Assembly: GCF_001428255.1 (NCBI RefSeq)
Contig: NZ_LMRW01000001.1
Span: 64,504 to 128,503, forward strand
DNA: 64,000 bases
Direction: 5' to 3'
Origin: Agromyces sp. Soil535
Lineage (GTDB): Bacteria > Actinomycetota > Actinomycetes > Actinomycetales > Microbacteriaceae
Part shown: piece after piece, positions 42,600 to 61,552 of the stretch
How positions within the stretch are numbered: the first letter of the stretch is position 1
Layout of the letters: each line of letters starts with the position of its first letter
The notes under the pieces: generated by a model
The model's input: only the letters and a program-made list of their open reading frames with translations
Databases searched by the model: none
What the model was told of the DNA's origin: nothing
Position numbers and translations under genes: made by a program

Positions 42600-42887
42600 C
42601 TACTTGGCAGCAGCCTTGAGCTTCGAGCCCGCCGACACCTTGACCGAGTAGCCGGCTGGGATGTCGATGGTCGCACCCGTCTGCGGGTTGCGGCCGGTGC
42701 GCGCGGCACGGTGCGTGCGCTCGACGGCGAGCCAGCCCGGGATGGAGACCTTGGTGCCGGAGCCCACGGACTCGGCGAGCGCCTCGAAGAGGCCCCCGAG
42801 CACGGCGTCGACGGTGGCCTGGCTCTGCCCGGTCGACGCTGCGACCTTTGCGACGAGCTCGGTCTTGTTGAGCGACTTGTCAGCCAT
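42600..42887 (-). CDS. hup: HU family DNA-binding protein
   Basis: The 95-residue protein has the HU fold in full: NKTELVAKVAASTGQSQATV at the start, VSIPGWLAVERTHRAARTGRNPQTGATIDIPA (the beta-arm region, residues about 47-78), and a short Lys-rich tail KLKAAAK. This is the short HU form without the long Lys/Ala extension of mycobacterial HupB. It binds and bends DNA. ATG 42887 follows GAGGAC. It lies beside the rearranged region. Confidence 0.95.
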   Translation of the reverse strand: MADKSLNKTELVAKVAASTGQSQATVDAVLGGLFEALAESVGSGTKVSIPGWLAVERTHRAARTGRNPQTGATIDIPAGYSVKVSAGSKLKAAAK

Positions 42888-42992: not shown

Positions 42993-43099
42993 AGAGATCC
43001 GCGGAATCCCGCGGATTTCCGGGACTTCGGACGATCTCCACACGGCGTGTCGCGAACGGATGCCGCGGCATCCGTCACCGGGGACGACGAGAGGGGCGC
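42993..43099. repeat. REP-like element, copy 1
   Basis: This about 107-bp element contains a near-palindrome (GGAATCCCGCGGATTTCC), then GACTTCGGACGATCTCCACA and the 20-bp palindrome ACGGATGCCGCGGCATCCGT at 43057-43076, and it ends GACGAGAGGGGCGC. Copies of the same element lie at 46229-46501. Its end overlaps the 3' end of the chimeric S14 gene. Confidence 0.85.
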
Positions 43100-43380
43100 G
43101 GCAGCTCGCCGCGGTGCGCCATGTCGCGGAAGCGAACACGCGAGACACCGAACTTCGAGAGCACGCCACGGGGGCGGCCGTCGATGGCGTCACGCGAGCG
43201 CAGGCGCACCGGCGACGCGTTGCGCGGGAGCTTCTGCAGGCCGACTCGGGCGGCCTCACGGCTCTCGTCGGTGCCGTTCGGGTCGACGAGCGCCTTCTTC
43301 AGCTCGAGGCGCTTCGCCGCGTAGCGGTCGACGACCACCTTGCGCTGGTCGTTGCGCGCGATCTTGCTCTTCTTCGCCAT
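43075..43380 (-). CDS. rpsN: Ribosomal protein S14, chimeric C-terminus
   Basis: The 101-residue S14 lacks the zinc CxxC pair (zinc-free form) and is close to the second copy at 46723. It ends [11 protein letters not shown] instead of [11 protein letters not shown]. The normal last codons and half of the terminator are missing because the sequence switches to the REP-like element. It could still be functional since the changed part is only the last seven residues. Its upstream neighbour is only an L33 tail, so the operon is truncated here. Confidence 0.75.
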
Positions 43381-43383
43381 GTC

Positions 43384-43530
43384 TTAGCGCTCCTCTCGGA
43401 AGTCGACGTGCTTGCGCACTCCCCACGCGAATGTCGCGATTTCTCGCGGCGGTTCGGTGGGGAGGGTCGCGGTCTGGGCAGTGGAAGTGCCCAGCCAAAG
43501 GTTCAGCTTGAACCAGACGGGAGGGGCAGG
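43384..43530 (-). pseudogene. Residual L33 tail and L28-type leader
   Basis: Positions 43384-43419 encode [11 protein letters not shown] and a stop, the C-terminus of L33. From 43420 the sequence changes. At 43471-43520 it resembles the leader before the intact L28 gene (47525-47575), sharing GGAAG, GCCCAGCCAAAGG and ACCAGAC in the same order. The entire L28 gene and most of L33 are therefore missing. The region to 43606 holds no gene. Confidence 0.65.
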
Positions 43531-43606
43531 GCAGAGCGAGCGGATGTCGCGGGGCGAATGCGAGCGGATGTCGCGGGCGCTTCGACCCACTTGGAGTCGT
43601 CAGCGC

Positions 43607-44338
43607 TCAGCCCCCCAACACCTGCAACAGCTCGGCGTTCTGCCGCTCGAGCTGCTTGAGCTGGCCGGCGTGCCACCCGTCGGCGAACATCTGGGCGAAC
43701 GGGTCGGGAAAGATCTCGTCGTGCCCGGCCTGCAGGCCGGCGAAGATCGAGCCCGCGACATCCGCTGCCGGTGTCTTCGGCAGCTCGAGATCGCGTGTCA
43801 TGTCGGTGTCGATGGGCCCGGCCAGCACCGCGTGCACCTGGATGCCGTCGCGAGCGTAGTGGGCGCGCTGCGCCTGGGTCAGCGAGAACGCGGCCGCCTT
43901 CGAGATGGAGTAGGCGGCGAGCATGGGAACCGACGCGAGCGCGGCCAGCGACAGCACGTTCACGATCGCACCGCGGGCCGCGGCCAGTTGCGGTCGCAGC
44001 GCGTTCGACACCTCGAAGGGTCCGCGGAGGTTGACCATCACGTGGCTCTCGATGTCGCTCCAGCTCGTGATCGCGTCGCCCGCAGCGACCCCGGCGTTGT
44101 TGATCACGAGGTCGACCTCGTCGATAGTTTCTACGACGCTGCGAATCTGCGAGACATCAGTGACATCGAGCAGTACCGGGGTGACTCGAGCGTCTGGGTG
44201 TGCGAATGCCTGTCGCGTGCCCGCGTAGACCCGGTCGGCGCCGAGGCGGAGCGCCTCGGCGACCAGCGCCTCGCCGAGGCCGCGATTGGCTCCGGTGATC
44301 AGTACGGTCTTGCCGTCGACGGTGAATGGCTCGGCCAT
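43607..44338 (-). CDS. Short-chain dehydrogenase/reductase
   Basis: This 243-residue SDR has TGANRGLG (residues about 15-22), VINNAG (about 78), VNVLSLAALASVPMLAAYSISK with the catalytic Ser, Tyr and Lys, and a LAGPIDTDMTR segment. It is divergent from an ECF sigma gene; 222 bp lie between them and may hold a shared promoter. Substrate is unknown. It is one of two intact genes inside the rearranged zinc region. Confidence 0.9.
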   Translation of the reverse strand: MAEPFTVDGKTVLITGANRGLGEALVAEALRLGADRVYAGTRQAFAHPDARVTPVLLDVTDVSQIRSVVETIDEVDLVINNAGVAAGDAITSWSDIESHVMVNLRGPFEVSNALRPQLAAARGAIVNVLSLAALASVPMLAAYSISKAAAFSLTQAQRAHYARDGIQVHAVLAGPIDTDMTRDLELPKTPAADVAGSIFAGLQAGHDEIFPDPFAQMFADGWHAGQLKQLERQNAELLQVLGG

Positions 44339-44560
44339 GGTGTGCTCCTGTCGTTCGTGAGGTGCGTGACCTCAGTGGTGGTCTCGCGTGGGTGTTCACG
44401 CGGGTCTCACAGAGGTGGACACGCGGAGTGGCCGAAACCGATCGGTGCGTGAGCGATGAGTTCGTGCCATCGGAGGTGTCTACCCCATTGGAACGGCGCA
44501 GCTGGCGGAGAATCCGCATCTGGTGGAAAATCCGGCCAGCGGATCAGGGATGGAGGGGAC

Positions 44561-45556
44561 ATGTCGGATCAACTCATGCATGCGGCGAAGGCGGGCGATC
44601 GGGCGGCGTTCGACGAACTGGTCGGGCCGCACCGCGACGAACTGCGTGTGCACTGCTACCGAATGTTGGGTTCGCTGCACGACGCCGAAGACGCGGTGCA
44701 GAAGACACTGCTTTCGGCGTGGCTGGCTCTCGACGGCTTCGCCGCTCGCTCGTCACTGCGAACCTGGCTGTACCGCATCGCGACCAATCGCTGCCTGAAC
44801 CTGCTGCGCTCAGCTCGGCGCCGCCCCGGCGCCGACCAGGCACTTCCAGTGCCCGCTCCCGAACCGACACGCCTCGGTGAGGTCTTCTGGCTGCAGCCCT
44901 ACCCCGACGTGCTCTTCGACGAACTCGCTTCGACTCAGCGCGGCCCCGACGCCGTTCATGAATCACGCGAGGCGATCTCGCTCGCCTTCGTAACGGCGAT
45001 TCAGCTGCTGCCGCCGAAGCAACGCGCCGTGCTGCTACTGCGCGATGTCTTGGGATACAACGCCCGTGAGACCGCCGGCGTGCTCGACACCAGCGTCGAG
45101 TCGGCGAACAGCGCCCTGCAACGAGCGCGCGCGACACTCGCGACGAGCTATCGCCCGCAATCGCCGCCGCCCTCGGGCGGAGTCGAAGAGCAGCGCCTGG
45201 TCGACCGACTCGTCGAGGCGCTGCTCAGCGGCGACATCGCCGGTCTGGTTGCGCTCATGAACGATGACGTCTGGGTTCGAATGCCTCCGCTGCCGTTCGA
45301 GTACCACGGCCGCGAGGCTGCGGAACAGTTCTTCGCTGCCGCCGCCTCGCATCGGAGGGGGTCGGTAAGGCTCGTGCCCACCCACGCCAACGGCCAGCCG
45401 GCGTGGGGCGACTACCACCGCGACCCGTGCTCGGGCGGGCTGATCATCGCAGGCATCGAGGTACTCGGCCTCGACTGCGGCGGGGTGAGCGAATTCACTC
45501 GGTTCGAGGCGAGCCTCGCGCCCTACTTCGGGCTGCCCAACCGCATCAGCGCCTAG
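44561..45556 (+). CDS. ECF sigma factor with C-terminal SnoaL-like domain
   Basis: The 331-residue protein has sigma region 2 (LVGPHRDELRVHCYRMLGSL and AEDAVQKTLLSAWLAL), region 4 (IQLLPPKQRAVLLLRDVLGY, then NARETAGVLDTSVESANSAL), and a C-terminal extension (about 200-331) with VRMPPLPFEYHGREAAEQFF and RLVPTHANGQPAWGDY. The extension matches the SnoaL-like part of sigma factors such as SigJ/SigG, which control their own activity. No anti-sigma gene is adjacent, which fits this class. ATG 44561 follows GGAGGGG. Confidence 0.9.
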   Translation: MSDQLMHAAKAGDRAAFDELVGPHRDELRVHCYRMLGSLHDAEDAVQKTLLSAWLALDGFAARSSLRTWLYRIATNRCLNLLRSARRRPGADQALPVPAPEPTRLGEVFWLQPYPDVLFDELASTQRGPDAVHESREAISLAFVTAIQLLPPKQRAVLLLRDVLGYNARETAGVLDTSVESANSALQRARATLATSYRPQSPPPSGGVEEQRLVDRLVEALLSGDIAGLVALMNDDVWVRMPPLPFEYHGREAAEQFFAAAASHRRGSVRLVPTHANGQPAWGDYHRDPCSGGLIIAGIEVLGLDCGGVSEFTRFEASLAPYFGLPNRISA

Positions 45557-45890
45557 TCGCGCCGGTCAGGTGCGTGGTCGCGCCCGCACTGCAGTCGGCG
45601 CACAGACTGAAGACGTCGACGACGTGGGCCGCCTGCGTGAAGCCGTGCACGGCGGCGACGCCTTTGGCCCAGGTCTCGACCTCGTCGGCGGCGATCTCGA
45701 CCGTGAGCCCGCAGTTGCGGCAGATGAGGTGGTGGTGGTGGCCGGTCGTGCTGCACGCCCTGTAGGGGGCTTCTCCGTCGGACGACTGCAGCGAATCCGC
45801 CTCGCCGTTCGATGCGAGGTCGCCGAGCGCCCGGTAGACGGTGGCGAGGCCGATCGGCGATCCGCTCGCATGCAGCGAGGAGTGCCGTGC
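45546..45890 (-). pseudogene. N-terminally truncated zur (second copy)
   Basis: The frame reads [20 protein letters not shown] to [20 protein letters not shown] and ends LTGATRR. It is close to the complete Zur at 57371-57790 but lacks its first about 30 residues (the first helices and their start). The DNA-recognition helix and zinc ligands are still present. Upstream of the break the sequence is the inverted-repeat scar, so no start is available and the gene should be dead. Confidence 0.8.
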
Positions 45891-45912
45891 CTGCGCACCC
45901 CCCAACCCAATT

Positions 45913-45966
45913 GAGTGGGCAGAGATTGCTCTTCGTTGCGCGATAGAGGGCGATCTCTGCCCACTC
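45913..45966. repeat. Inverted-repeat scar between znuB and zur remnants
   Basis: GAGTGGGCAGAGAT (45913-45926) and ATCTCTGCCCACTC (45953-45966) are perfect inverted arms separated by 26 bp; they extend to about 17 bp with one mismatch. The element sits exactly at the join of the two broken genes. It resembles short terminal inverted repeats of an insertion sequence or MITE. No transposase remains. Confidence 0.65.
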
Positions 45967-46230
45967 GATTCAGGAGGAGCGTGATTGCGCAGCCGAGAAC
46001 GAAGATGGCGACGATCGTGCTGCCCGTGGGCAGATCGACGCTGGCGCCGACCGAGATGGCGAATCCCGCTGCGAGGCCGAGCCACAAGCCGACCGCGGCG
46101 AACACGGCCGCGACCGGGAATAGCCACCACAGGCGCTTCGTCGCGAGGCGGGCGACCGCGCCGGGCACGATCAGGAGCGCGACCACGAGCAGCGTGCCGA
46201 CGGTGCTCGCGGCCGCGACGACGACCAGCA
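45967..46230 (-). pseudogene. znuB C-terminal fragment (second copy)
   Basis: About 85 residues read [20 protein letters not shown] to [20 protein letters not shown]. They match the C-terminal third of the intact permease at 58629-59558 ([28 protein letters not shown]). The N-terminal part is replaced by the REP-like element at 46229. With the zur fragment it shows that a second znu-zur locus once lay here. Confidence 0.8.
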
Positions 46231-46501
46231 GAGATCCCCGGAATCCCGCGGATTTCCGGGACTTCGGACGATCTCCACACGGCGTGTCGCGAACGGATGC
46301 CGCGGCATCCGTCACCGGGGACGACGAGAGGGGCGCCCCCTTTCGGGACGCGGATTTCCGGGACTTCGGACGATCTCCACACGGCGTGTCGCGAACGGAT
46401 GGCGGAATCCCGCGGATTTCCGGGACTTCGGACGATCTCCACACGGCGTGTCGCGAACGGATGCCGCGGCATCCGTCACCGGGGACGACGAGAGGGGCGC
46501 C
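46229..46501. repeat. REP-like element, copies 2-4
   Basis: A near-complete copy runs 46229-46336, a partial copy 46351-46400, and a third 46401-46501. Each carries GACTTCGGACGATCTCCACA and CGGCGTGTCGCGAACGGAT. Complete copies also carry the 20-bp palindrome ACGGATGCCGCGGCATCCGT. The identical sequence at 42993-43099 shows these are recent duplicates or collapsed repeats. Confidence 0.85.
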
Positions 46502-46522
46502 CCCTTTCGGGACGCCCCTCTC
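46490..46522 (-). terminator. S14 operon terminator
   Basis: GAGAGGGGCG (46490-46499) pairs perfectly with CGCCCCTCTC (46513-46522) around a 13-nt loop CCCCCTTTCGGGA. It stands after the S14 fragments on the minus strand. The second half is repeated alone at 46690-46711. Confidence 0.75.
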
Positions 46523-46537
46523 GGTGAACGCTGCTGC

Positions 46538-46661
46538 TTACCAGCTCGACTTGGTGATGCCGGGCAGCTCGCCGCGGTGCGCCATGTCGCGGAAGCGAAC
46601 ACGCGAGACACCGAACTTCGAGAGCACGCCACGGGGGCGGCCGTCGATGGCGTCACGCGAG
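46538..46661 (-). pseudogene. S14 C-terminal fragment
   Basis: The last about 40 codons of S14, from [12 protein letters not shown] to GITKSSW and stop at 46538, occur here. The sequence uses the codons of the copy at 43075 (CTTCGAGAGCACGCCACGGG) rather than those of the copy at 46723. It is followed at 46662-46685 by another short piece of the S14 end. These overlaps suggest template switching or assembly slippage. Confidence 0.75.
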
Positions 46662-46722
46662 TACCAGCTCGACTTGGTGATGCCGCACCTTTCGGGACGC
46701 CCCTCTCGGTGAACGCTGCTGC

Positions 46723-47028
46723 TTACCAGCTCGACTTGGTGATGCCGGGCAGCTCGCCGCGGTGCGCCATGTCGCGGAAGCGAACACGCGAGACACCGAA
46801 CTTGGTGAGCATGCCACGGGGACGGCCGTCGATGGCGTCACGGCTGCGGAGGCGAACCGGCGACGCGTCGCGCGGCAGCTTCTGCAGGCCTCGACGAGCG
46901 GCCTCGCGGCTCTCGTCGGTGCCGCTGGGGTCGATGAGCGCCTTCTTCAGTTCGAGGCGCTTCGCCGCATAGCGGTCGACGACCACCTTGCGCTGGTCGT
47001 TGCGCGCGATCTTGCTCTTCTTCGCCAT
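46723..47028 (-). CDS. rpsN: Ribosomal protein S14 (zinc-free form)
   Basis: This complete 101-residue S14 reads [20 protein letters not shown] at the start and [20 protein letters not shown] to TKSSW at the end, and lacks the CxxC zinc pair. ATG 47028 lies three bases after the expected L33 stop (47032). It is a component of the 30S head. Zinc-free S14 replaces the zinc form under zinc limitation in many actinobacteria, but in Microbacteriaceae it may be the sole form; this cannot be decided here. Confidence 0.92.
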
Positions 47029-47031
47029 GTC

Positions 47032-47191
47032 TTAGCGCTCCTCTCGGAAGTCGACGTGCTTGCGCACCGTACTTCTTGAGCACGAGACGGTCGGGGTCGT
47101 TGCGACGGTTCTTGCGGGTCACGTAGGTGTACCCGGTGCCGGCCGTCGAACGGAGCTTGATGATGGGGCGGATGTCCTGCTGCTTGGCCAT
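47032..47191 (-). pseudogene. rpmG: Ribosomal protein L33 with an 8-nt deletion
   Basis: The gene reads [20 protein letters not shown] to DRLVLKKY correctly, then shifts frame at about 47068. In the restored frame the end reads [11 protein letters not shown] and stops at 47032. A normal 55-residue L33 needs 168 nt; 160 are present. The break lies at GCGCAC, exactly where the truncated operon copy at 43419 also changes. As given, the frame runs 118 residues into S14. Since L33 is normally needed, an assembly error or a second copy elsewhere is likely. Confidence 0.75.
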
Positions 47192-47427
47192 TAGAGCTTC
47201 ACCCCACGAGCCTGGATGTCCTTGATGACCGCCTCGATGCCGCGGGCGTCGATCACCTTGATGCCCTTGGCGGACACGTTCAGGGTGACGTTACGACGAA
47301 GCGACGGCACGTAGTATGTCTTCTTCTGCACGTTCGGGTCGAAGCGGCGCTTCGTCCGGCGGTGCGAGTGCGAGATGTTGTGTCCGAAGCCGGGAACGGC
47401 TCCAGTCACCTGGCACACTGCTGCCAT
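47191..47427 (-). CDS. rpmB: Ribosomal protein L28
   Basis: The 78-residue L28 starts [20 protein letters not shown] and continues [20 protein letters not shown] with [21 protein letters not shown] at the end. Only one of the four zinc Cys remains (CQVTG), so it is the zinc-free form. ATG 47427 follows GGAGGAAAG. Its TAA overlaps the L33 start (TAATG). No Zur box was found in 47428-47600, though a leader with hairpin potential exists. Confidence 0.93.
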
Positions 47428-47584
47428 TGGTCTTTCCTCCAATACCGAGGGGCGGATGCCCCTCCCAAGGTCTCTTGTCTGCAGGCAACCCCCGACTGCT
47501 TGAGCAGTTTAGATACCGAGGGGGTGTCCACGGTCTGAGCGGTGGAAGCGCCCAGCCAAAGGGAAAGCCTACCAGACCGGCGCC

Positions 47585-47666: not shown

Positions 47667-48872
47667 CTATGGTGTGGTGGCTCTCCCTTCGGCCACGACG
47701 CTCGGCAGAGCCGCCTGAATCGCCACCGCCGCCGCGCCTCGAGCCCAGCTGCCGAAATCGCTACGGTCGTAGCGCACGTCGAGTGGATGGGCGTCCGCGT
47801 CGCGATTCTCGAGCAGCGCGTCTGTCAGCTCCGCCTCTGCGACATCGAGAATCGCGATCCCCTCACCGCTCACGACCACCACGTCGACGAGCGAGAGATT
47901 CGCGACGAACGCGATCAGTCGCCCGAGCGCGCGGGCCGCGGTCGAGACGATCGACGAACACAGCGGTTCGCCCGAGGCGGCGTGTTCGAGGAGTTCCTCG
48001 AAGGTGACAGGGCGGCCGTGTCCGAGGGTCGCCTGGGCGCACATGCTGGGAATCGTCAGCATCGCCGTCGCGCACCCCCGGTGGCCGAGCATGCATGGCG
48101 GCCCGAGCGGGTCGAGTGCGATGTGTCCTGCGAGGCCGAGCCCGGCATCCCGGCTGCGGACGACGCGGTCGCGTGTGACGAGGCCGAGGCCGATTCCCGC
48201 GCCGATGGTCACCACGGCGAAGTCGGTCTCCCCCCGCCCCGCTCCGAACCAGTGCTCGACGGCGGTCAACGCGGTGACGTCGTTCTCGACGATGGTGGCG
48301 ACGCCCGTCGCGCGCTCGACGAGTTCGGCGAGTTCGACGCCGCGCCATTCGAGGAACGGGGCTCGGTCGACACGGCGGCCGTCTTCGGCGCTCCCGCCGA
48401 GGCTGACGCCGATCGCCTCGAACGGACGGCCGGTGGCCGTGCGGAGCCGCTGCTCGAGCTCGGCGATGACGGCGACGACCGCTTCGGGGCGGTGGTCGTC
48501 GAGCGGATGACTCGCGACGGCGACCTCGCTCGCCGTCAAGTCGGTCGCGGTCGCGAAGGCCTCGGTGCCGGTGAGCTTCACACCCATGAACGTTCGCCCG
48601 TTCGCGCGGACGAGGAGCGGCCGCGACGGACGGCCGACGCCGTCGATGCGATCCCCCGTCTCGACGACGAGACCGGAGTCCATAAGCGACTTGACGATCC
48701 GGGTGAGCGTCGGCTGCGACAAGCCGAGCTGGTCGGCCACCTCCGTGCGCGAGATCGGCCCGTGGATCAGGATCGAGCGGGCGACGATCACGCTCGGATC
48801 ACGCGCGGGAGCGGCATCCGGTACGACCAGCTCGGCCAACGTCGTCCACCTCCAGTTCCGCAGCGCCTTCAT
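47667..48872 (-). CDS. ROK family transcriptional repressor
   Basis: The 401-residue protein has an N-terminal winged helix-turn-helix (GPISRTEVADQLGLSQPTLTRIVKSLMDSG, residues about 37-68) and a ROK sugar-binding/kinase-like domain (about 90-390). Its zinc-site motif reads CMLGHRGC rather than CxCGxxGC, so one ligand is changed. It lies last in a sugar operon and probably represses it through the operator at 54438-54460, with an alpha-galactoside as inducer. ATG 48872 begins MKALRNWRW. Confidence 0.9.
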   Translation of the reverse strand: MKALRNWRWTTLAELVVPDAAPARDPSVIVARSILIHGPISRTEVADQLGLSQPTLTRIVKSLMDSGLVVETGDRIDGVGRPSRPLLVRANGRTFMGVKLTGTEAFATATDLTASEVAVASHPLDDHRPEAVVAVIAELEQRLRTATGRPFEAIGVSLGGSAEDGRRVDRAPFLEWRGVELAELVERATGVATIVENDVTALTAVEHWFGAGRGETDFAVVTIGAGIGLGLVTRDRVVRSRDAGLGLAGHIALDPLGPPCMLGHRGCATAMLTIPSMCAQATLGHGRPVTFEELLEHAASGEPLCSSIVSTAARALGRLIAFVANLSLVDVVVVSGEGIAILDVAEAELTDALLENRDADAHPLDVRYDRSDFGSWARGAAAVAIQAALPSVVAEGRATTP

Positions 48873-48898
48873 CCTCGCACGCGCCCGTCGGCTGCGGC

Positions 48899-51031
48899 TC
48901 AGCCGGGTATGCGATCGCAGACGACGAGGATGGCCTCCTCCGGGAAGACGATCGGTGGGCGCAAGCCGATCTCGCCCAGGGCCGCCCCGGTCAGCTCCGC
49001 GCCCGCCATCCACCTCGGGGGGCGGTGCTGCACGGCCGGGGCACCGCCGAAGTCGCGACTGGAGACCCGGTAGACGGCGTCCGGGTCCAACCCGGGAAGG
49101 ACGAACGTGTCGGGCACGCTCCCCTGCGCAGGGGACTTCTGCACGTACGCGAAGATCGCACGCGACCTGTCCCGCGCGACGACGCCGTGCACGAGCGCGG
49201 CGGGATCGCCGTGGTCGCCCCGCACGACGCGGCCCGAGTGGAGCAGGTCGCGCTCGGCCCGGTAGAACACGGCCCAGTCCCGGATGGCGGCACGCTCGTC
49301 GTCGGTCGCCTCCAGGAGGTTCCATTCGATGCCGGCGTGCCCGAACAGCGCGGTGATCGCCCGGAACTGGATGCTGTGCCGACGCCCGGTCGTGTGCGAG
49401 ATCGTTGGTCCGATGTGCATTCCCAGCAGTTCCGGCGGGATCACGAGGCTGGTCCAGCGTTGGATCTCCTGGCGCTCGAGTGGGTCGTTGGAATCCGAGG
49501 TCCAGAACCGGTCGGCGTGCATGACCATGCCGAGGTCGACCCTTCCGCCACCTGAGGCGCAGGACTCGATCTCGAGCCCGGGATTACGCCGGCGGAGTTC
49601 GTCGAAGAGCGCGTATATCGCCTGCGTCTGACGGCGGACCGCCGGCGCGCCCCCGTGCCCGGGATCAACGAGGGTGCGATTGTGATCCCACTTGATATAC
49701 GAAACGCCCGCGTCGCGGATGACGGCGTCGACCTGTTCGAGGACGTGCGCGTACGCGTCGGTGTTCGAAAGATCGAGCACGAGCTGGTTGCGGGCGGTCG
49801 GCGGGATCCGGCTGTCGACACGGAGGATCCAGTCGGGGTGCGTGCGATACAGCTCGGAGTCGGGGCTGACCATCTCGCCCTCGAACCAGAGGCCGAACTC
49901 CATGCCGAGCGATCGGATCCTGTCGGCGAGCGGGCGGAGGCCGTCGGGCCAGACGTCGGGCGAGACGACCCAGTCGCCGAGGCCGGCATGATCGTCTCGA
50001 CGGGCGCCGAACCATCCGTCATCGAGCACGAAGCGTTCGACGCCGACCGACGCCGCGACCTCGGCGAGCGCCGAGAGTCGTTCGAGGTCGTGATCGAAGT
50101 AGACCGCTTCCCAGACGTTCAGGGTCAGGGGGCGCGGACGGACGCGAGTGGGATGCTGCGGCCGCGACCGGAGCCAGCCGTGCGCGACGTCGCTGATCCC
50201 GTCGAGACCCGCCCGCGAGTGCAGGGCGACGACGGTCGGCGCCGTGTACCGTTCCCCGGGCCCCAGGACGACCTCGCCCGGCGCGAGCAGCTCACCTGCC
50301 CCGATCGACTTCCGTCCGGTCGGCAGCTGCTCGACCATGTGACGGGTGTTACCGCTCCACATGAGCGCCATCGCCCAGATCTCTCCGCGCGCGAATGTTG
50401 CGCCGGCGGTGCTCGCGCACTGGACGATCGTGTAATCGTGACCGGAGCGGCCCTCCTGGCCCTCCCGCAGGGCGATGCCCGGAAGGATCGGTCGACGTGC
50501 GAGTTGACGTTCGCGCAGCCAGCGACCGCTGAAGTCGATGATCTCAGCGGCACGGTCGGGCAGGGGCAACCAGGACGAGAGCTCGTCGAGCGTGTAGGCG
50601 TCGTCGCCGTCGTTCGTCAGCTGCACGTCGACCTTGATCACGCCCTCCGGGAGGACCTCGTAGCGGAGCGAGAGGCTCAGCATCGCGGCGGCGTCGACGA
50701 GCTGGAACTGGCAGTCCGTGTCGGTCGATTCGATGGAGCGGAGTTCGAAGAGGGTCGACCAGGCGCGCGATCCGCGGTGGCCGCGCACGGCGGGGCGGCC
50801 GTGGAACCCGCGGCCCGGATCGCGGAGTGCCCCGGCATCCGCCGGCCGGTCGAGATGGGCGTGCGGCACCGGCCCGCTGAGGAGGGCGGGCAGGTCGAGC
50901 GAGTTCCCGCGCGACACCGGAGCGCCCCAGTGCGCGATGATCGGGTACCCGGCGGACGTGTCGATGAGGAGCTCGACAGTTCCGCCGACGAGATGGATGT
51001 TGTGGTCTGCGCGTGCCGCAGTGGCGAACAT
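48899..51031 (-). CDS. Alpha-galactosidase, GH36
   Basis: The 710-residue enzyme has the three GH36 parts: an N-terminal beta-domain, a catalytic (beta/alpha)8 barrel and a C-terminal beta-domain. Nucleophile Asp449 lies in YIKWDHNR, acid/base Asp499 in SCASGGGRVD, and DDGWFG (about 345) marks the substrate cleft. It cleaves terminal alpha-galactose from melibiose or raffinose-type sugars in the cytosol; no signal peptide is present. Start ATG 51031 follows AGAGGGAA. It lies downstream of the transporter genes on one strand. Confidence 0.93.
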   Translation of the reverse strand: MFATAARADHNIHLVGGTVELLIDTSAGYPIIAHWGAPVSRGNSLDLPALLSGPVPHAHLDRPADAGALRDPGRGFHGRPAVRGHRGSRAWSTLFELRSIESTDTDCQFQLVDAAAMLSLSLRYEVLPEGVIKVDVQLTNDGDDAYTLDELSSWLPLPDRAAEIIDFSGRWLRERQLARRPILPGIALREGQEGRSGHDYTIVQCASTAGATFARGEIWAMALMWSGNTRHMVEQLPTGRKSIGAGELLAPGEVVLGPGERYTAPTVVALHSRAGLDGISDVAHGWLRSRPQHPTRVRPRPLTLNVWEAVYFDHDLERLSALAEVAASVGVERFVLDDGWFGARRDDHAGLGDWVVSPDVWPDGLRPLADRIRSLGMEFGLWFEGEMVSPDSELYRTHPDWILRVDSRIPPTARNQLVLDLSNTDAYAHVLEQVDAVIRDAGVSYIKWDHNRTLVDPGHGGAPAVRRQTQAIYALFDELRRRNPGLEIESCASGGGRVDLGMVMHADRFWTSDSNDPLERQEIQRWTSLVIPPELLGMHIGPTISHTTGRRHSIQFRAITALFGHAGIEWNLLEATDDERAAIRDWAVFYRAERDLLHSGRVVRGDHGDPAALVHGVVARDRSRAIFAYVQKSPAQGSVPDTFVLPGLDPDAVYRVSSRDFGGAPAVQHRPPRWMAGAELTGAALGEIGLRPPIVFPEEAILVVCDRIPG

Positions 51032-51102
51032 ACTGCGATTCCCTCTCTGCATGGGGGTGGGGAGGATGATCGGGACATCCTCCCCACGATGTCGGTCGGA
51101 GG

Positions 51103-52440
51103 CTACTCGAAGAGGGCGTTCACCTTGTTGTTCGCGTCCGTCAGCGAATCGACTCCGGCCTTGCCCGACATGACCGCTTCCATCGCCGGCGTCATGATGG
51201 CGTTGACATCGGACTTGAAGTCGGTGATCGGGTAGAGGATGGTCGTCCCGTTCTCGACCTGGGAGATGAACGGCGAGACGTCGATGCCCTTGCCCTCGAA
51301 GGCGGCGACCGCCTTCTCGGTCGCGGTCTTGATGGCGGGGAAGACGACGGCGGCGTCAGCCACCACGTCCTGGCAGGCCTCCGAGCCGAGGTACTTGACC
51401 CACTCCCACGCCGCGTCGGCGTCCTTCGTCGTCACCGAGATGTTGTCGGCGAGGCCGTTCATCGTCGAGGCCCGCTCGCCGTGGGGACCGACCGGCGTGG
51501 GTGCTACCGCGGGCGTGAAGGTGTCGCTTGCGGAGCCGAAGACGTAGCCGGTCATCCATGACCCGTTCGGCACGAGCGCGGCGCTGCCGGCGATGAGCTG
51601 GTCGGCCCAGCCGATGCCGGTCTGCGCCTCGAAGGGCGGCATGTACCCCTTCTCGACGAGCGAGTGCCACCAGGCGATGGTCTCCTGGAACTTCGGGTCG
51701 TCGTAGTGGTAGGAATCCGCCCACGGTCCGTCGGTCTGCTCCCAGGGGAGCGTCCCGGTGAGGAAGGTCCACTGGGTCTGGCCGTCGGCGCCGCCGGAAC
51801 CTTCCATCCACAGCCCATAGGTTTCCACGTTGCTCTTGTCGAAGCCGGGCTCGTCGCCGCGCACGCCGTTCTTGTCCACGGTCAAGTGGGCGATGACGTC
51901 CTCGTACGTGCCGCCGTCCTCGGCGTTCCAGGTGAGGCTCGCCAGTTGCTCGTCGGTGATGCCGGCGGCCTCGGTGAGTTGCTCGTTGTAGAAGAGTGCG
52001 ACGGTGTCGAAGTCCTTCGGCAGGCCGTACTGCTCGCCGTCCGGGTTCTGCCAGAGCTCCACGAGGCCGTCCTGATACACGGAGAGGTCGACGTCATCGC
52101 GCTCGATGTAGTCGTCGAGCGGCAGCACCTGACCGTTCTTCTGGAACTCGGGGTAGTAGGCGACGTGGCTCGTGAAGACGTCGTAGGTGTCGCCGGAGAC
52201 GAAGCCGGTCGTGATCTTGTTCCAGTAGTCGTCCCAGCCGATCTGCTCGATGTCGATCTTGTAGCCGTCGTTCGCATCTTCGAAGTCCTCGGCGCACTGC
52301 TGGTATGCCGGAAGCTGATTGGCATCCCACAGGCCGTACTTGATCGTCTTCGTGCCGTCATCGGACGAGCCGGCCGTACAGCCGGTGAACGCTCCGATGG
52401 TCGCGACGACGACGACGCCGGCGGTCACGATTCTCTTCAT
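51103..52440 (-). CDS. Family 1 sugar-binding lipoprotein
   Basis: The 445-residue protein has a lipoprotein signal (GAFTGCTAG) and the family 1 extracellular sugar-binding fold, with KYGLWDANQLPAYQQCAEDF, DVFTSHVAYYPEFQ, YGLPKDFDTVALFYNEQL and ALVPNGSWM. It should capture alpha-galactosides for the two permeases upstream. The signal and first GGT start at ATG 52440. No ATPase gene is in the cluster; a shared MsiK-type ATPase is the usual solution in actinobacteria. Confidence 0.92.
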   Translation of the reverse strand: MKRIVTAGVVVVATIGAFTGCTAGSSDDGTKTIKYGLWDANQLPAYQQCAEDFEDANDGYKIDIEQIGWDDYWNKITTGFVSGDTYDVFTSHVAYYPEFQKNGQVLPLDDYIERDDVDLSVYQDGLVELWQNPDGEQYGLPKDFDTVALFYNEQLTEAAGITDEQLASLTWNAEDGGTYEDVIAHLTVDKNGVRGDEPGFDKSNVETYGLWMEGSGGADGQTQWTFLTGTLPWEQTDGPWADSYHYDDPKFQETIAWWHSLVEKGYMPPFEAQTGIGWADQLIAGSAALVPNGSWMTGYVFGSASDTFTPAVAPTPVGPHGERASTMNGLADNISVTTKDADAAWEWVKYLGSEACQDVVADAAVVFPAIKTATEKAVAAFEGKGIDVSPFISQVENGTTILYPITDFKSDVNAIMTPAMEAVMSGKAGVDSLTDANNKVNALFE

Positions 52441-52562
52441 GGTGGTGTCTGCTTTCTCTCTTGGTGGGGATGGGAGGTCTCTCCCTGGTCGGGTGGGAGA
52501 TCTCGGTGGGGTGGGGGTGGGAGACGGCGTCGAGCCGTCATGGCCGGGGTCGTGGGGCGGTG

Positions 52563-53537
52563 CTACTTGACTCCGGACGATTGAATCGAGCCGACGATCC
52601 GACGGCCGAAGACGAGGACGAGGATGAAGATCGGCACGGCGGCGAGGAGCGCTCCCGCCATGAGCCCGGCCCAGTCGGGGTTGCCCTGCGGCGTCTGGGA
52701 GCGGAAGATCCCCAGGCCGACGGTCAGCATCTTCGTGTCCTCGGTCTGGCCGACCAGGAGCGGCCAGAGGTAGTCGTTCCATGCGGCGATGAACTGGAGG
52801 ATGGCGATCGTCACGACCTGCGGAGCGATGAGCGGCAGCGCGATCCGACTGAAGATGCGCCACTGACCGGCTCCATCGATGACGGCCGCCTCGATGATGC
52901 TCCGGTTCACGCCGAGGAAGAACTGCCTGAGGAAGAAGACGACGAAGGGCGACATCAGCATCGCCGGCAGGGCGATGCCGAGATAGGTGTTGAGGAGCCC
53001 GAGTTCCTTGATCAGCACGAAGTTCGGCAGGAGGGTGAACATGCCGGGCACCATGAGCGCCACGAGGAACGCAGCGAACACGACGTTACGGCCGGGCCAC
53101 TCGAGCAGGGCGAAGGCGTAGGCGGCCATCGAACTGAACACGACCTGGAAGACCGTGATCATGGTGCAGACGATGATCGAGTTCAGCAGGTACAGGCCGA
53201 AGTTGATGTCGGCGCCCGATCCGCCCTCGGCGATCGCGTCCGCGGTCGACGCGATGCCGAGGACCCGCTGGAACGGTCCGAGCGTGAAGTCGACCGGAAG
53301 CAGACTCAGCGGCTCGGAGAACATGGACCGGTTGTTGCTGAGGGCGGTCCGGATCATCCAATAGAACGGGAACAGGGTGATCGCGATCGCGATCACGATC
53401 AGGACCCATCCGATCACCCGCGATCGCAGGGACTTCGTCGCGCCTGTCTCGCGTTCCTGGTTCCGTTTCGAGGCGGGTCGGCTCTTCTCGGGGCGCGGCG
53501 AGGTTCCGGTGGTCGGGGGTGCAGTGAGGAGCGTCAT
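52563..53537 (-). CDS. ABC sugar permease, MalG type
   Basis: The 324-residue protein has six helices and the EAA loop EAAVIDGAGQWRIFSRIALP (residues about 220-239), which docks the ATPase. The N-terminal 35 residues are hydrophilic. ATG 53537 lies 3 nt from the stop of the MalF-type gene, so the two are coupled. Substrate is inferred from the alpha-galactosidase downstream. Confidence 0.92.
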   Translation of the reverse strand: MTLLTAPPTTGTSPRPEKSRPASKRNQERETGATKSLRSRVIGWVLIVIAIAITLFPFYWMIRTALSNNRSMFSEPLSLLPVDFTLGPFQRVLGIASTADAIAEGGSGADINFGLYLLNSIIVCTMITVFQVVFSSMAAYAFALLEWPGRNVVFAAFLVALMVPGMFTLLPNFVLIKELGLLNTYLGIALPAMLMSPFVVFFLRQFFLGVNRSIIEAAVIDGAGQWRIFSRIALPLIAPQVVTIAILQFIAAWNDYLWPLLVGQTEDTKMLTVGLGIFRSQTPQGNPDWAGLMAGALLAAVPIFILVLVFGRRIVGSIQSSGVK

Positions 53538-53539
53538 GG

Positions 53540-54427
53540 TCAGCGATCCAGATCCGATTCGTTCGCACGAAGCACGCGCAACTGGAGCAGCGCGACGACG
53601 GCGAGGATGAGCATGAGGACGACCGAGAGTGCCGACGCGTACCCGAAGTCGAATTGGGCGAACGCCTGGTCGTAGATGTAGACGTTGAGCGCTCGGGTCG
53701 CGTCGACGGGGCCGCCACCCGTGGTCACGGCGATCGTGTCGAAGATCTGGAACGACCCGACGACGGAGATGACCAGCACGAACGCGAGGACCGGCCGCAG
53801 CAGCGGCATCGTGACGGACCGGAATGTCCGCCACTCCCCCGCGCCGTCGACCTCGGCGGCTTCGTAGACGTCGCGCGGGATCGCCTGGAGGCCGGCGAAG
53901 ATGAGCAGCGTCGTGTACCCCAGGTGCCGCCACACGTTGATCAGGGCGATCGTCGGCATGGCGAGCAATTCGTTGCCGAAGAACCCCACGCGATCGAACC
54001 CGATCGAATCCAGCGCCGAGTTGATGAGGCCCAGGTTGTAGTCGGCGAGCCAGAACCAGACGAGGGCGACGACGACGTTCGCGATGAGATATGGCAGCAG
54101 CACGATGCCGCGGATGATCATCGAGCGCGTGAAGCGGTGCAGCAGCACGGCCAGCACGAGGGCCGCCGCCGTCTGGATGCCGATGTTGATCACGACGTAC
54201 TCGATGGTGACCCAGAGGGAGTTCCAGAAGACCGGGTCCTGGGCGATGGCGATGTAATTGTCGAGCCCGATCCACTCCGGTGCCCTCAGCAGGTTGAAGT
54301 CGGTGAAGCTCAGGTAGAGGCCGCGAATCGACGGCCATGCGAAGAAGACGGCGAACCCAAGGAGCGCTGGGGCCAGGAACATCAGCGCGGGAGCGAGCTG
54401 ATTCCGAGCGAGGGGCTTCGTTGCCAC
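53540..54427 (-). CDS. ABC sugar permease, MalF type
   Basis: This 295-residue protein has six helices, LAPALLGFAVFFAWPSIRGLYLSFTDF near the start, and the EAA loop EAAEVDGAGEWRTFRSVTMP (about 207-226). GTG 54427 is chosen because GGAGGTAC precedes it; the longer frame upstream reads through the operator. It is the first gene of the operon, directly after the promoter at 54459-54486. Confidence 0.92.
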   Translation of the reverse strand: MATKPLARNQLAPALMFLAPALLGFAVFFAWPSIRGLYLSFTDFNLLRAPEWIGLDNYIAIAQDPVFWNSLWVTIEYVVINIGIQTAAALVLAVLLHRFTRSMIIRGIVLLPYLIANVVVALVWFWLADYNLGLINSALDSIGFDRVGFFGNELLAMPTIALINVWRHLGYTTLLIFAGLQAIPRDVYEAAEVDGAGEWRTFRSVTMPLLRPVLAFVLVISVVGSFQIFDTIAVTTGGGPVDATRALNVYIYDQAFAQFDFGYASALSVVLMLILAVVALLQLRVLRANESDLDR

Positions 54428-54437
54428 GGTACCTCCA

Positions 54438-54486
54438 GTAACTTCATTGTTGGAAGTAACCATAGCGGCAGGACCTCGAATGTCAA
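54438..54486 (-). promoter_or_regulatory. Promoter and operator of the alpha-galactoside operon
   Basis: On the minus strand, TTGACA (54486-54481), 16 bp, and TATGGT (54464-54459) form a strong promoter. An imperfect palindrome GTAACTTC-ATTGTTG-GAAGTAAC (54438-54460) covers the -10 and start site, the usual place for a repressor. A weaker related site (AACTTTCAATCTGGAAG) lies upstream near 54513-54530. The ROK protein is the likely ligand-controlled repressor. Confidence 0.75.
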
Positions 54487-54552
54487 GCAATATCGCGCGA
54501 TGTGTTCGAACCAACTTTCAATCTGGAAGCAAAGAGGCGGGGCCCCCGCCGA

Positions 54553-54685
54553 ACAGATCGCACCGAGGAAGGTGCCGAGGTTCGCCCAGAACATGCTCAC
54601 GAGCGTGCCCGTCCCGGGCGACACGTACGCGCCCACCGAGGACACGCCGAACGCGATGGACCCGAGCAGGTTCAGCCACACCAGG
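54553..54685 (-). pseudogene. Fragment of a YrhK-like membrane-protein gene
   Basis: About 43 codons read VWLNLLGSIAFGVSSVGAYV, then SPGTGTLVSMFWANLGTFLG and AIC. They match the C-terminal part of the intact gene at 55170-55841 with several substitutions. There is no start or stop. The fragment lies between the sugar operon promoter and the right 27-bp repeat. Confidence 0.75.
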
Positions 54686-54780: not shown

Positions 54781-55173
54781 ATGGCGACGTGGGACGACGT
54801 GCGTGCGTTGGCGCTCGCGCTGCCCGAGACGAGCGAGCACGTCTCGCACGGGGGCGCCCAGTGGAAGGTGCGCGCGAAGGGATTCGTGTGGGAGCGCCCG
54901 CTGCGCCGCGCCGACCTGGACGCGCTCGGGATCGACGCGCAGACCGGGCCGGTGCTCGGCGCGGCGACGGAGGACGAGGCCGTGAAGTTCGCGCTGATCG
55001 CCGAGGACCCCTCGGTGTTCTTCACGACGCCGCACTTCGACGGGTACGCCGCCGTGCTCGTGCACCTCGACCGCATCTCGAAGCGGCGACTCTCGGAGGT
55101 GGTGGCCGAGGCGTGGGCGGCCGCCGCGCCGGCGAAGCTCCTGCGGGAGCACCTCCAGCGCAACGTCGACTAG
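54781..55173 (+). CDS. MmcQ/YjbR family protein
   Basis: The 130-residue protein reads MATWDDVRALALALPETSEH, then KGFVWERPLRRAD, EDPSVFFTTPHFDGYAAVLV and KRRLSEVVAEAWAAAAPAKL. This is the YjbR fold, a small cytosolic DNA-binding-like protein of unknown role. The 3' end overlaps the convergent YrhK-like gene by 4 nt. Start ATG 54781 has no clear RBS, and GCGTAGCCT upstream may be a -10 for a leaderless mRNA. Confidence 0.9.
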   Translation: MATWDDVRALALALPETSEHVSHGGAQWKVRAKGFVWERPLRRADLDALGIDAQTGPVLGAATEDEAVKFALIAEDPSVFFTTPHFDGYAAVLVHLDRISKRRLSEVVAEAWAAAAPAKLLREHLQRNVD

Positions 55174-55841
55174 GCCGGCTCCGAGTCGATCGTCCGACGC
55201 GACAGCAGCGCTGCCACGAAGAAGCAGATCGCCCCGAGGAACGTGCCGAGGTTCGCCCAGAGCAAGCTCACGAACGTGCCGGTCTCGGGCGACACGTAGG
55301 CGCCCACCGCCGACACGCCGAAGGCGATCGAGCCGAGGAGGTTCAGCCACGTGCCGTGCCAGGTTCGCGCGTCGCGGTCCCAGAGCTTGCCGCGGTCCTT
55401 CGTCGCCACCACGGCCAGCGCGCTCGAGACGAGGAAGGCGACCGAGCCGAACGCATCCGGCCGCCACCCCGCACCGAGCCGGGTCGGGTCGGCGATCGCC
55501 GCGATGAGCGCGGCCCCGGTGCTCACGTTGAAGAAGAGGGTGCCGATGAACTGGATCATGGCCGCCCACCAGTCCGCACGGTCGGCACGGTTCGTGTCAC
55601 TCCGGGGCGGGCGCCGTCCACTGAGGCTCAGCTGGATGAACGCCGCCGCCGTGAAGAAGATCGAGCCGGCGAAGAAGGTGACGCCGACGGCCACGGCGCC
55701 GGCCCATTCCGCGTAGAACGGCACCGCTCCGACCGCGAAGCACAGCGAGCCGACGGCGAAGCCCCACGCCTCGCGGCGCAGGCGTCGCCGCCGACCCGTG
55801 TGCCCGGCCGGCGCGCTCATCGCCGCGGCATCCGCGCTCAT
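55170..55841 (-). CDS. YrhK-like membrane protein
   Basis: The 223-residue protein has about six helices and the YrhK-like segment (WLNLLGSIAFGVSAVGAYVS to WANLGTFLGAICFFVAALL) near the end, and a charged N-terminus with RRRRLRREAWGF. Start ATG 55841 lies 13 nt after the gadB stop, so it is co-transcribed with glutamate decarboxylase. Function is unknown; a role with GadB in pH stress is speculation. Confidence 0.8.
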   Translation of the reverse strand: MSADAAAMSAPAGHTGRRRRLRREAWGFAVGSLCFAVGAVPFYAEWAGAVAVGVTFFAGSIFFTAAAFIQLSLSGRRPPRSDTNRADRADWWAAMIQFIGTLFFNVSTGAALIAAIADPTRLGAGWRPDAFGSVAFLVSSALAVVATKDRGKLWDRDARTWHGTWLNLLGSIAFGVSAVGAYVSPETGTFVSLLWANLGTFLGAICFFVAALLSRRTIDSEPA

Positions 55842-55854
55842 CGGTTCGCTGCGC

Positions 55855-57225
<1,371 letters not shown>

Positions 57226-57340
57226 GTGCTGGGTCCTTCCGGTTGGCGTGGTTCCCCGGCCCGCGCGCCGCGCGAGCAACCGGAAGGCCGTGACCCCAGG
57301 GAGGTGCCGGAGCCCCCCGGGCCGGTCACCGTCTACGAGC

Positions 57341-57380
57341 GAGACACTACGCCCGGGCACTCACCGGCCGCTAGTGTCTC
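57341..57380 (-). terminator. Hairpin at the end of zur
   Basis: GAGACACTA (57341-57349) and TAGTGTCTC (57372-57380) are perfect inverted arms around a 22-bp GC-rich loop. The right arm includes the zur stop codon. It could end the znu-zur transcript, or serve as a site before gadB. Confidence 0.5.
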
Positions 57381-57790
57381 GGCGGATGCGCCTCCTCCGC
57401 GCCGAGCGCCTTCGTGCAGTTCGCGCAGAGCCCGAACACGTCGACGACGTGCGCGGCCCCGGTGAAGCCGTGCTCGGCGGCGACGCGCTTCGCCCAGGAC
57501 TCGACCTCGTCGGCGGCGATCTCCACCGTGAGTCCGCAGTTGCGGCAGATGAGGTGGTGGTGGTGCCCGGTCGTGCTGCATGCGCGATAGAGCGCCTCGC
57601 CCTCGGGCGACTGCAGCGAGTCGGCCTCGCCGTTCGCCGCGAGGTCGCCGAGCGCGCGATAGACCGTGGCGAGGCCGATCGGAGATCCGCTCGCGTGCAG
57701 TGACGAGTGCAGCGCCTGCGCGCTGATGAACCCCTCGGTCTCGTCGAGGGCCTCGCGTACGGCTTCGCGCTGCCAGGTGTTTCGCTTCAT
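57371..57790 (-). CDS. zur: Zinc uptake regulator Zur (Fur family)
   Basis: The 139-residue protein has a winged helix (TWQREAVREALDETEGFISA and [15 protein letters not shown]) and the zinc/dimer region [16 protein letters not shown] with a second CxxC (CANC) at the C-terminus. The HHHH and paired CxxC are typical of Zur. It ends the znuA-znuC-znuB-znuB operon; its ATG overlaps the previous gene's stop. With zinc it represses uptake genes through the Zur box at 61536-61552. Confidence 0.9.
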   Translation of the reverse strand: MKRNTWQREAVREALDETEGFISAQALHSSLHASGSPIGLATVYRALGDLAANGEADSLQSPEGEALYRACSTTGHHHHLICRNCGLTVEIAADEVESWAKRVAAEHGFTGAAHVVDVFGLCANCTKALGAEEAHPPRH

Positions 57791-59558: not shown

Positions 59559-59619
59559 CGCGCGCCACTCCCCCGCCGCGTCGCGTGTCGCCGCTCACGC
59601 ACGCATGCCGCGACCGGCA

Positions 59620-61522: not shown

Positions 61523-61552
61523 AAGGTAGTCCTTATTGATAATGATTGTCAA
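61523..61552 (-). promoter_or_regulatory. znu promoter with Zur box
   Basis: TTGATAATGATTGTCAA (61536-61552) closely fits the actinobacterial Zur box, TGATAATGATTATCA. On the minus strand TTGACA (61552-61547), an 18-bp spacer and TACCTT (61528-61523) form a promoter whose -35 and spacer are covered by the box. Zinc-loaded Zur should shut this promoter. Confidence 0.85.

Follow-up and report, generated by a model that had tools for sequence, protein, structure and literature searches.

The locus lies at 43.0-47.2 kb of a 64-kb stretch of Agromyces sp. Soil535 DNA (hereafter the window) and carries sequences of the ribosomal protein genes rpsN (S14), rpmG (L33) and rpmB (L28) in two places, with pieces of zur and znuB1 between them. 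A sequence-only reading had placed L28 leader-like DNA, an L33 tail and a chimeric S14 at 43.1-43.5 kb, fragments of zur and znuB at 45.5-46.2 kb and, further on, S14 end pieces followed by an S14-L33-L28 set with a damaged L33. All the pieces that it listed were found in the window at those places: the zur and znuB fragments occupy 45546-45896 and 45986-46228, and the damage to L33 is a loss of frame at 47067/47068. An intact zur-znu locus, unmentioned in that reading, was also observed in the window. The order S14-L33-L28-(leader, variable DNA)-zur-znuB2-znuB1-znuC was found in all 40 Agromyces relatives whose locus was fetched, each with one strong match apiece for S14, L28 and zur, and their rpmB-to-zur interval ranged from 202 to 14,013 bp (0.2 to 14 kb). 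HU stood to the left of S14 in 36 of the 40, those where it was found, and its DNA identity to the relatives was 84-94%. The features were as follows (coordinates, strand, description).

42600-42887, minus: HU (hupB), PF00216; trustworthy native left flank
43002-43099, no strand: putative contig-end overlap X, 98 nt (rpsN 3' flank), with copies at 46239-46336 and, one base longer, 46402-46500
43075-43380, minus: S14 copy 1 (native-type allele), matching PF00253 to position 48 of 54; 3' end lost at join 43099/43100
43100-43198, no strand: putative contig-end overlap Y, 99 nt, starting at join 43099/43100; exact copy 46563-46661, ending at the next join
43322-43419, no strand: putative contig-end overlap Z, 98 nt (S14 start and L33 tail); exact copy 46970-47067
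43420-43551, minus: L28 leader, second part, type A by leader alignment, the form of most native-clade members
43607-44338, minus: short-chain dehydrogenase (cargo), PF00106
44561-45556, plus: sigma-70-family (ECF-like) sigma factor with SnoaL-like domain (cargo), PF04542, PF08281, PF12680
45546-45896, minus: zur remnant, first ~26 codons absent, PF01475 positions 32-119 of 121
45896-45986, no strand: strong hairpin between the zur and znuB1 remnants, DNA fold z -5.4
45986-46228, minus: remnant of the znuB1 C-terminus, running into rpsN 3' flank; 78% to own znuB1, 83% to G019
46229-46401, no strand: rpsN 3'-flank fragments (putative contig end and debris), exact repeats of 43002-43099 and 43010-43062
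46402-46661, no strand: putative gap closure set in the wrong place, 99 + 62 + 99 nt, with the S14 end that copy 1 lacks
46662-46685, no strand: S14-end scrap, 24 nt, with exact copies at 46539-46562 and 46724-46747
46723-47028, minus: S14 copy 2, full length by profile match
47069-47191, minus: L33 body, out of frame after 47067/47068; the genome's only L33 match
47191-47427, minus: L28, intact, with no second L28 match in the genome
47428-47611, minus: L28 leader whose distal half is of type B by leader alignment
47667-54514, minus: alpha-galactoside cargo by Pfam (ROK regulator, GH36 alpha-galactosidase, ABC substrate-binding protein, two permeases)
57383-60450, minus: zur-znuB2-znuB1-znuC, intact; genes named from homology and order
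61537-61551, plus: Zur-box-like palindrome before a znuA-like gene, the best site, 1 mismatch to an actinobacterial consensus

We looked at the two S14 copies. Copy 1 has its final residues replaced, and in the diagnostic stretch, compared over the 31 of 40 relatives that align without gaps, it is 94.6% identical to the own-clade relative G030. It differs from copy 2 at 22 sites, all of them at positions matching 43156-43321 (166 nt). The interval 46229-46685 holds fragments of the S14 end and of the rpsN 3' flank. The L33 tail (43381-43419) is fused directly to the L28-leader DNA at 43420-43551. In the second set, the L33 match to PF00471 is limited to positions 2-36 of 47, and the stretch from S14 to the L33 body is 7-9 nt shorter than in all 40 relatives (by 8 nt for 33 of them, 7 for six and 9 for one), with the break at 47067/47068. 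The L33 body, L28 and the first leader half are 96.4-98.6% identical even across species, among the 14 matches listed. The leader types A and B are our own labels, taken from an alignment displaying 24 relatives, and G070, G031 and G003 are counted as type B though absent from that display. The own clade was defined by a tree of HU and zur-znuB, in which its six relatives all group with the window at forks with SH-aLRT of 85-94; one of them, G079, has neither leader form. The S14 alleles and the L28 leaders look to derive from different lineages.

The zur and znuB1 remnants were found to be distinct from the intact genes. As the sequence-only reading had proposed, they are what is left of a second set; it is a diverged one, with 86% (zur) and 78% (znuB1) identity to their intact counterparts. 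The zur differences fall mainly at third codon positions, in a comparison covering 36 of the 40 relatives. The remnants are placed apart from the intact genes in weakly supported trees, and such short pieces (281, 307, 229 and 359 columns) gave few supported branches. The intact zur is 91-92% identical to that of G030, G036, G009 and G072, and the intact znuB2 86-87% to that of G030, G009 and G072. Hairpins resembling the one between the remnants were present at two places in G019. That this hairpin is a common mobile repeat was rejected, as only 7 of 60 genus genomes (own included) matched at E 0.1, mostly over short lengths. An Rfam RNA at the locus was likewise dropped, with a single chance-level match (E 0.52).

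We then considered the joins themselves. The exact repeats of the locus run for 98-116 nt, far beyond chance, and those ending at joins are 99 nt (43001-43099 with 46402-46500; 43100-43198 with 46563-46661) or 98 nt long (43002-43099 with 46239-46336; 43322-43419 with 46970-47067). Overlap X terminates at join 43099/43100. Overlap Z begins just past the last difference between the S14 copies and ends at join 43419/43420, while its copy at 46970-47067 stops at the L33 shortening. Two of the join repeats start one base after an inter-copy difference (43001 with 46238, 43321 with 46969) and end at a join, the pattern that a k-1 of 98 would require. The piece at 46402-46661 consists of the 99-nt left flank of join 43099/43100, 62 extra nt and the 99-nt right flank of the same join. 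Maximal exact direct repeats of at least 60 nt within 20 kb were surveyed over 1,469,811 bases of an assembly of 4,827,303. A length of 98 or 99 nt was observed in 13 of 32 such repeats, and in 9 of the 26 outside the locus, several of which cluster in the same two stretches of contig C3. Identical 98 or 99 nt stood directly on both sides of 5 of 39 runs of N, and 33 of the 39 were without any long direct overlap. In the loci of the 40 relatives (490,540 bases, one third of the length surveyed in the own assembly), neither of the two repeats had this length (63 and 64 nt). What is seen directly is the 98/99-nt pattern, both at the joins and in other parts of the assembly, and the sequence of two alleles. 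Such a fixed overlap length at joins and N gaps is what a de Bruijn assembler run at k=99 leaves behind.

These results argue strongly that the layout at 43.0-47.2 kb is mostly a k=99 short-read de Bruijn artefact of two similar rpsN-rpmG-rpmB versions, a reading in which we have high confidence. The two S14-L33-L28 versions would share stretches, and contigs would end 98 nt past the last difference; collapsed shared contigs would be used once or misplaced, with their overlaps left unmerged. Copy 1 would thereby lose precisely the parts common to both, namely the 62 nt with the S14 end, the L33 body, L28 and the first leader half, the last three being collapsible because they are so similar even between species. 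The 62 nt would reappear 3.4 kb away within the 99 + 62 + 99 closure piece, and the same contig end would account for the L33 shortened by about 8 nt. The artefact is supported by the other genomes of the genus, 58 of 59 having a single match each for S14, L33 and L28 and the remaining one (77% complete) none. Counting against it, the 33 runs of N without a long direct overlap are the great majority of the 39, and the window contains no N within its 64 kb, so that some closing step must have removed it. A k of 99 does not explain in detail the pieces 46349-46401 and 46662-46685, the nucleotides lost from L33, the few lost at the start of leader 1, or the position of join 43099/43100, which sits 56 nt before the first S14 difference. 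'Misassembled' had been the alternative offered by the sequence-only reading, and it is borne out by the 98/99-nt join repeats and by overlaps of equal length that flank single-N gaps in other parts of the assembly; its deletions at shared repeats give way to the loss of collapsed repeat contigs during assembly. Given the k=99 mark, four features should be regarded as untrustworthy: the truncation of S14, the absence of L28 and L33 from copy 1, the scraps of S14 sequence and the frame shift in L33. The two S14 alleles, the two leader types and the zur-znuB1 remnant survive correction for the artefact.

A rival reading is a real chromosomal scar: once DNA of a related Agromyces had been taken up, template switching or end joining in the cell would have duplicated and cut pieces of rpsN, rpmG and rpmB, and left the sole L33 frameshifted. 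The joins share 0-3 nt when read by eye, the genome has a Ku gene, the S14 alleles and leaders look like those of different lineages and the zur/znuB1 remnant is diverged, all of which would fit. The equal lengths of the exact 98/99-nt repeats flanking the join, found again at N gaps elsewhere, decided against it, and we consider it quite improbable. No cellular process known to us leaves exact repeats of 98/99 nt both on the two sides of a join and around N gaps. Campbell-type integration of a donor circle fits the tandem order and was also rejected: the joins are untrustworthy, and a diverged donor is hard to square with rpsN 3' flanks that are the same in both units over 98 nt. Nor can one donor be named for the whole foreign part, since a partial YrhK copy (54554-54679) is nearest to the window's own YrhK (89%; at most 84% among the 25 matches listed) and not to the type-B clade.

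Another reading has two strains or variants in the culture, whose versions of the interval the assembly would have set next to each other, giving the false look of a tandem duplication. It concerns the source of the versions and is compatible with the assembly artefact. The passages of Kelley and Salzberg (2010, PMC2864568) on false segmental duplications describe two haplotypes set at adjacent sites, where, as here, two versions at neighbouring places look recently duplicated. The cases described there are vertebrate haplotypes, whereas in Agromyces the overlaps are those of a bacterial k=99 assembly and the two versions may come from tandem copies or from a mixed culture. The 22 S14 differences within 166 nt favour two strains; the contamination estimate is only 0.43%, and the znuB1 remnant is joined to an rpsN flank with a difference of its own (46238), which suggests a real second locus. 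A mixed culture seems unlikely to us.

The ancestral zinc-limitation cluster (Zur, Znu and zinc-free ribosomal proteins) that the sequence-only reading thought plausible, decaying here by deletion, would be consistent with zur-znu lying 0.2-14 kb from rpmB-rpmG-rpsN in all 40 relatives. According to a review (PMC6103462), Zur governs zinc-free ribosomal paralogues in Streptomyces and Mycobacterium. The Agromyces locus has in common with the regulon outlined there rpsN, rpmG, rpmB, zur and znuABC, CXXC-free proteins (CXXC is absent from the translations of S14, L33 and L28) and neighbouring loci; as differences, no zinc-binding paralogues were found in this genome and no Zur-box-like site at the ribosomal operon. 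The copy count of rpmB, rpmG and rpsN that the same reading had suggested gave three S14 matches, all at the locus, and one each for L33 and L28, with none beyond the locus and therefore no zinc-binding paralogue to replace. A scan of the 64 kb with a Zur-box consensus, allowing at most 3 mismatches, gave three sites (0.92 expected), none at either L28 leader. With the single-copy order in all 40 relatives and the single copies across the genus also against it, decay of a zinc cluster was dropped and is very improbable.

Altogether, we infer that it was collapse which took out the sequence common to both copies. We also infer that the underlying chromosome has two operon versions in tandem, within a stretch of variable cargo that separates rpmB from zur. 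Some cargo genes of this interval are present in certain relatives and missing from others, and homologues of the alpha-galactoside cluster were found elsewhere in the genomes of G007, G020 and G032. An integration hotspot, as a general concept, is a stretch of changing cargo bordered by conserved genes. The Agromyces interval resembles one in its varying length and patchy cargo, and differs in that no integrase or other mobility gene was found among the proteins scanned, which are part of the window's genes. More tentatively, the two tandem versions may stem from different Agromyces lineages, each with cargo and a zur-znuB flank of its own behind it, in a ribosomal-operon exchange half-way through, driven by recombination in this genus-wide variable interval; we consider this possible, at somewhat less than even chances. 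The artefact reading would clear a public genome of a spurious broken ribosomal operon with a frameshifted sole L33, and it offers a test that needs no reads: exact repeats of fixed length (k-1 or k) can be sought at suspect joins and at N gaps of the same assembly. The biology that remains is the variable rpmB-zur interval of Agromyces, of modest interest.

The locus lies in a draft assembly of 29 contigs and 4,827,303 bases, which is 99.99% complete and 0.43% contaminated; the window covers C1:64504-128503 of this draft. All the elements listed by the sequence-only reading, that is the ribosomal, zur and znuB pieces, were found in the window. On the plus strand, the order from left to right is HU, the rpsN 3' flank, an S14 with a replaced end, and then a 39-nt L33 tail, followed by a partial L28 leader, a dehydrogenase, a sigma factor and a zur remnant. 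After this remnant come a strong hairpin, a znuB1 remnant and several scraps of rpsN 3' flank and S14 end, then a full S14, an out-of-frame L33, L28, the L28 leader and an alpha-galactoside utilisation cluster. The features are:

18571-18768, tandem array of 33-nt units
43075-43380, minus strand, S14 copy 1, 3' end lost
43470-43500 and 47532-47562, stem-loop-like motif that is conserved in L28 leaders
45896-45986, strong long-stem hairpin at the junction of the zur and znuB1 remnants (similar hairpins occur at two places in G019, a relative's genome)
46723-47028, minus strand, S14 copy 2, full length
47667-54514, alpha-galactoside cluster (ROK, GH36, ABC transporter), with the L28 leader to its left and a YrhK gene to its right
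54554-54679, partial second copy of the end of the YrhK-like gene (55225-55350), bordering the alpha-galactoside cluster on the right and sharing 89% identity with the full gene
57.4-60.5 kb, intact zur-znuB2-znuB1-znuC locus, right of the alpha-galactoside cluster

The gene order S14-L33-L28-zur-znuB2-znuB1-znuC was present in all 40 Agromyces loci fetched, with HU left of S14 in 36, which are all those in which HU was found. In none of these 40 loci did S14, L28 or zur match strongly a second time. Among 60 genomes of the genus, the window's included, 58 others contained exactly one match each for S14, L33 and L28 and another one (77% complete) contained none, while the window's genome had three S14 matches, all at the present locus, one L33 and one L28. 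Moreover, the spacing from S14 to the body of L33 was shorter in the window by 8 nt relative to 33 of the 40 relatives, by 7 nt relative to six and by 9 nt relative to one.

The two S14 copies differ at 22 sites, all within 43156-43321 or the matching positions, and are identical in the flanks of this stretch (56 and 98 nt). When the stretch was compared with 31 relatives aligned without gaps, copy 1 was closest to G030 (94.6%), a member of the clade of the window's flanking genes, and copy 2 reached at most 89.8% with any of them. In a tree of HU, zur, znuB2 and znuB1, the window grouped with G030, G072 and G009, and a wider grouping added G036, G012 and G079 (SH-aLRT 85-94). The leader beside S14 copy 1 is of type A, the form of five of the six relatives in this native clade, G079 having neither form. 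The distal half of the leader beside L28 is of type B, as in G035, G060, G010, G002, G023, G004, G075 and G077. L33 and L28 themselves are closest to the native clade, and the likeness of the L33-L28-leader block to G012, G009, G030 and G072 stops where the two leader types diverge. Taken together, the S14, leader and L33-L28 sequence comparisons indicate that the assembly includes sequence from two versions of the rpsN-rpmG-rpmB operon. These may be two tandem versions in the strain or two variants in the culture. Of the 24 relatives displayed from the leader alignment, all but G079 (23) have the stem-loop-like motif, possibly a regulatory leader of rpmB; the motif matched no Rfam family at E up to 0.5.

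We surveyed every maximal exact direct repeat of at least 20 nt within 42.5-47.7 kb. The repeats touching the joins of copy 1, the suspected false junctions between assembled pieces, measured 99, 98, 99 and 98 nt; the survey also gave repeats of other lengths, of 113, 116, 56, 53, 24 and 20 nt. The repeat 43002-43099 begins just past a difference between the rpsN-flank copies (43001/46238) and stops at the join 43099|43100. Similarly, 43322-43419 begins just past the last S14 difference and stops at the copy 1 join, its end also coinciding with the point at which the copy 2 L33 is shortened. The repeat 43100-43198 begins at a join, and its twin stops at another, 46661|46662. The piece 46402-46661 consists of the 99 nt left of join 43099|43100, 62 nt, and the 99 nt right of it; G030, G036 and G009 are among the relatives with a similar stretch at the corresponding place. 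When a de Bruijn assembly uses k=99, a contig entering shared sequence ends 98 nt beyond the last difference, and a closure joining two contigs includes both end words. We know of no cellular process that yields such repeat lengths.

The same signature was found elsewhere in the 1,469,811 of 4,827,303 bases read (contigs C1, C2 and C3 complete, 160,000 of 463,577 bases of C23 and 120,000 of 394,566 of C24). Among the maximal exact direct repeats in these bases that were 60 nt or longer and had both copies within 20 kb, 13 of 32 were of 98 or 99 nt, or 9 of 26 when the six at the present locus were excluded; eight of these nine are on C3, and some overlap, so that they are not fully independent. 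As a control, 490,540 bases from 40 relatives gave two repeats of at least 60 nt (63 and 64 nt). Five of 39 runs of N were immediately flanked on both sides by an exact 98- or 99-nt overlap, and one further run by a 108-nt overlap; at C3:1573, the same 98 nt reappear 65 nt further on. The remaining 33 lack a long direct overlap, and many of them cluster at the ends of C1 and could each be one unread base. C3:114.8-137.3 kb is a second scrambled stretch with N-gaps. It and C3:1-3.6 kb (loci L253, L258 and L279), both scrambled or unmerged, show exact 98/99-nt overlaps flanking single Ns, together with repeated blocks spaced about 17-20 kb. In vertebrate genomes, false segmental duplications that arise when two haplotypes are placed side by side have been described (PMC2864568); among the literature matches listed for Agromyces with rpmG/rpsN, there was no apparent treatment of the present locus.

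Until reads show otherwise, the truncated S14, the absence of L33 and L28 from copy 1, the S14 scraps and the frameshift in L33 should thus be regarded as errors of assembly. What copy 1 lacks is what would be identical in both copies, as in collapsed repeats. The k=99 model does not account in detail for the smallest scraps, the nucleotides lost in L33 or the removal of N. More trust can be placed in the interiors of contigs, namely in both S14 alleles, both leaders, the remnant of zur and perhaps the junction between the znuB1 remnant and an rpsN flank. The zur remnant differs chiefly at third codon positions but has six changes at 169 sites invariant across the intact zur and 36 relatives, compared with a mean of 0.47 and a maximum of 4 changes per relative.

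In Streptomyces and Mycobacterium, zinc-free ribosomal paralogues are described as repressed by Zur (PMC6103462), and the sequence-only reading had considered an ancestral zinc-limitation cluster plausible here. The window's S14, L33 and L28 proteins lack CXXC. With an actinobacterial Zur-box consensus, three Zur-box-like sites were found in the window versus 0.92 expected, the best (one mismatch) in front of a znuA-like gene. Since the genome has no further S14, L33 or L28 family members beyond this locus, and the window scan gave no Zur-box-like site at either L28 leader, these results do not support the zinc reading for the ribosomal operon.

A cluster similar to the alpha-galactoside one occurs at another site in G007, G020 and G032; in the first two, a related sigma factor lies a few kb away. 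The stretch 55170-57360, with YrhK and a glutamate-decarboxylase-like gene (named from our reading of the translation), is closest to G082 and G067 (85%) rather than to the clade with which the adjacent zur-znu genes group (G072, 76%), and this suggests recombination there. Across the relatives, L28 and zur are separated by 202 to 14,013 bp (median 6,180) with varying gene content, so that cargo genes appear to turn over in this interval.
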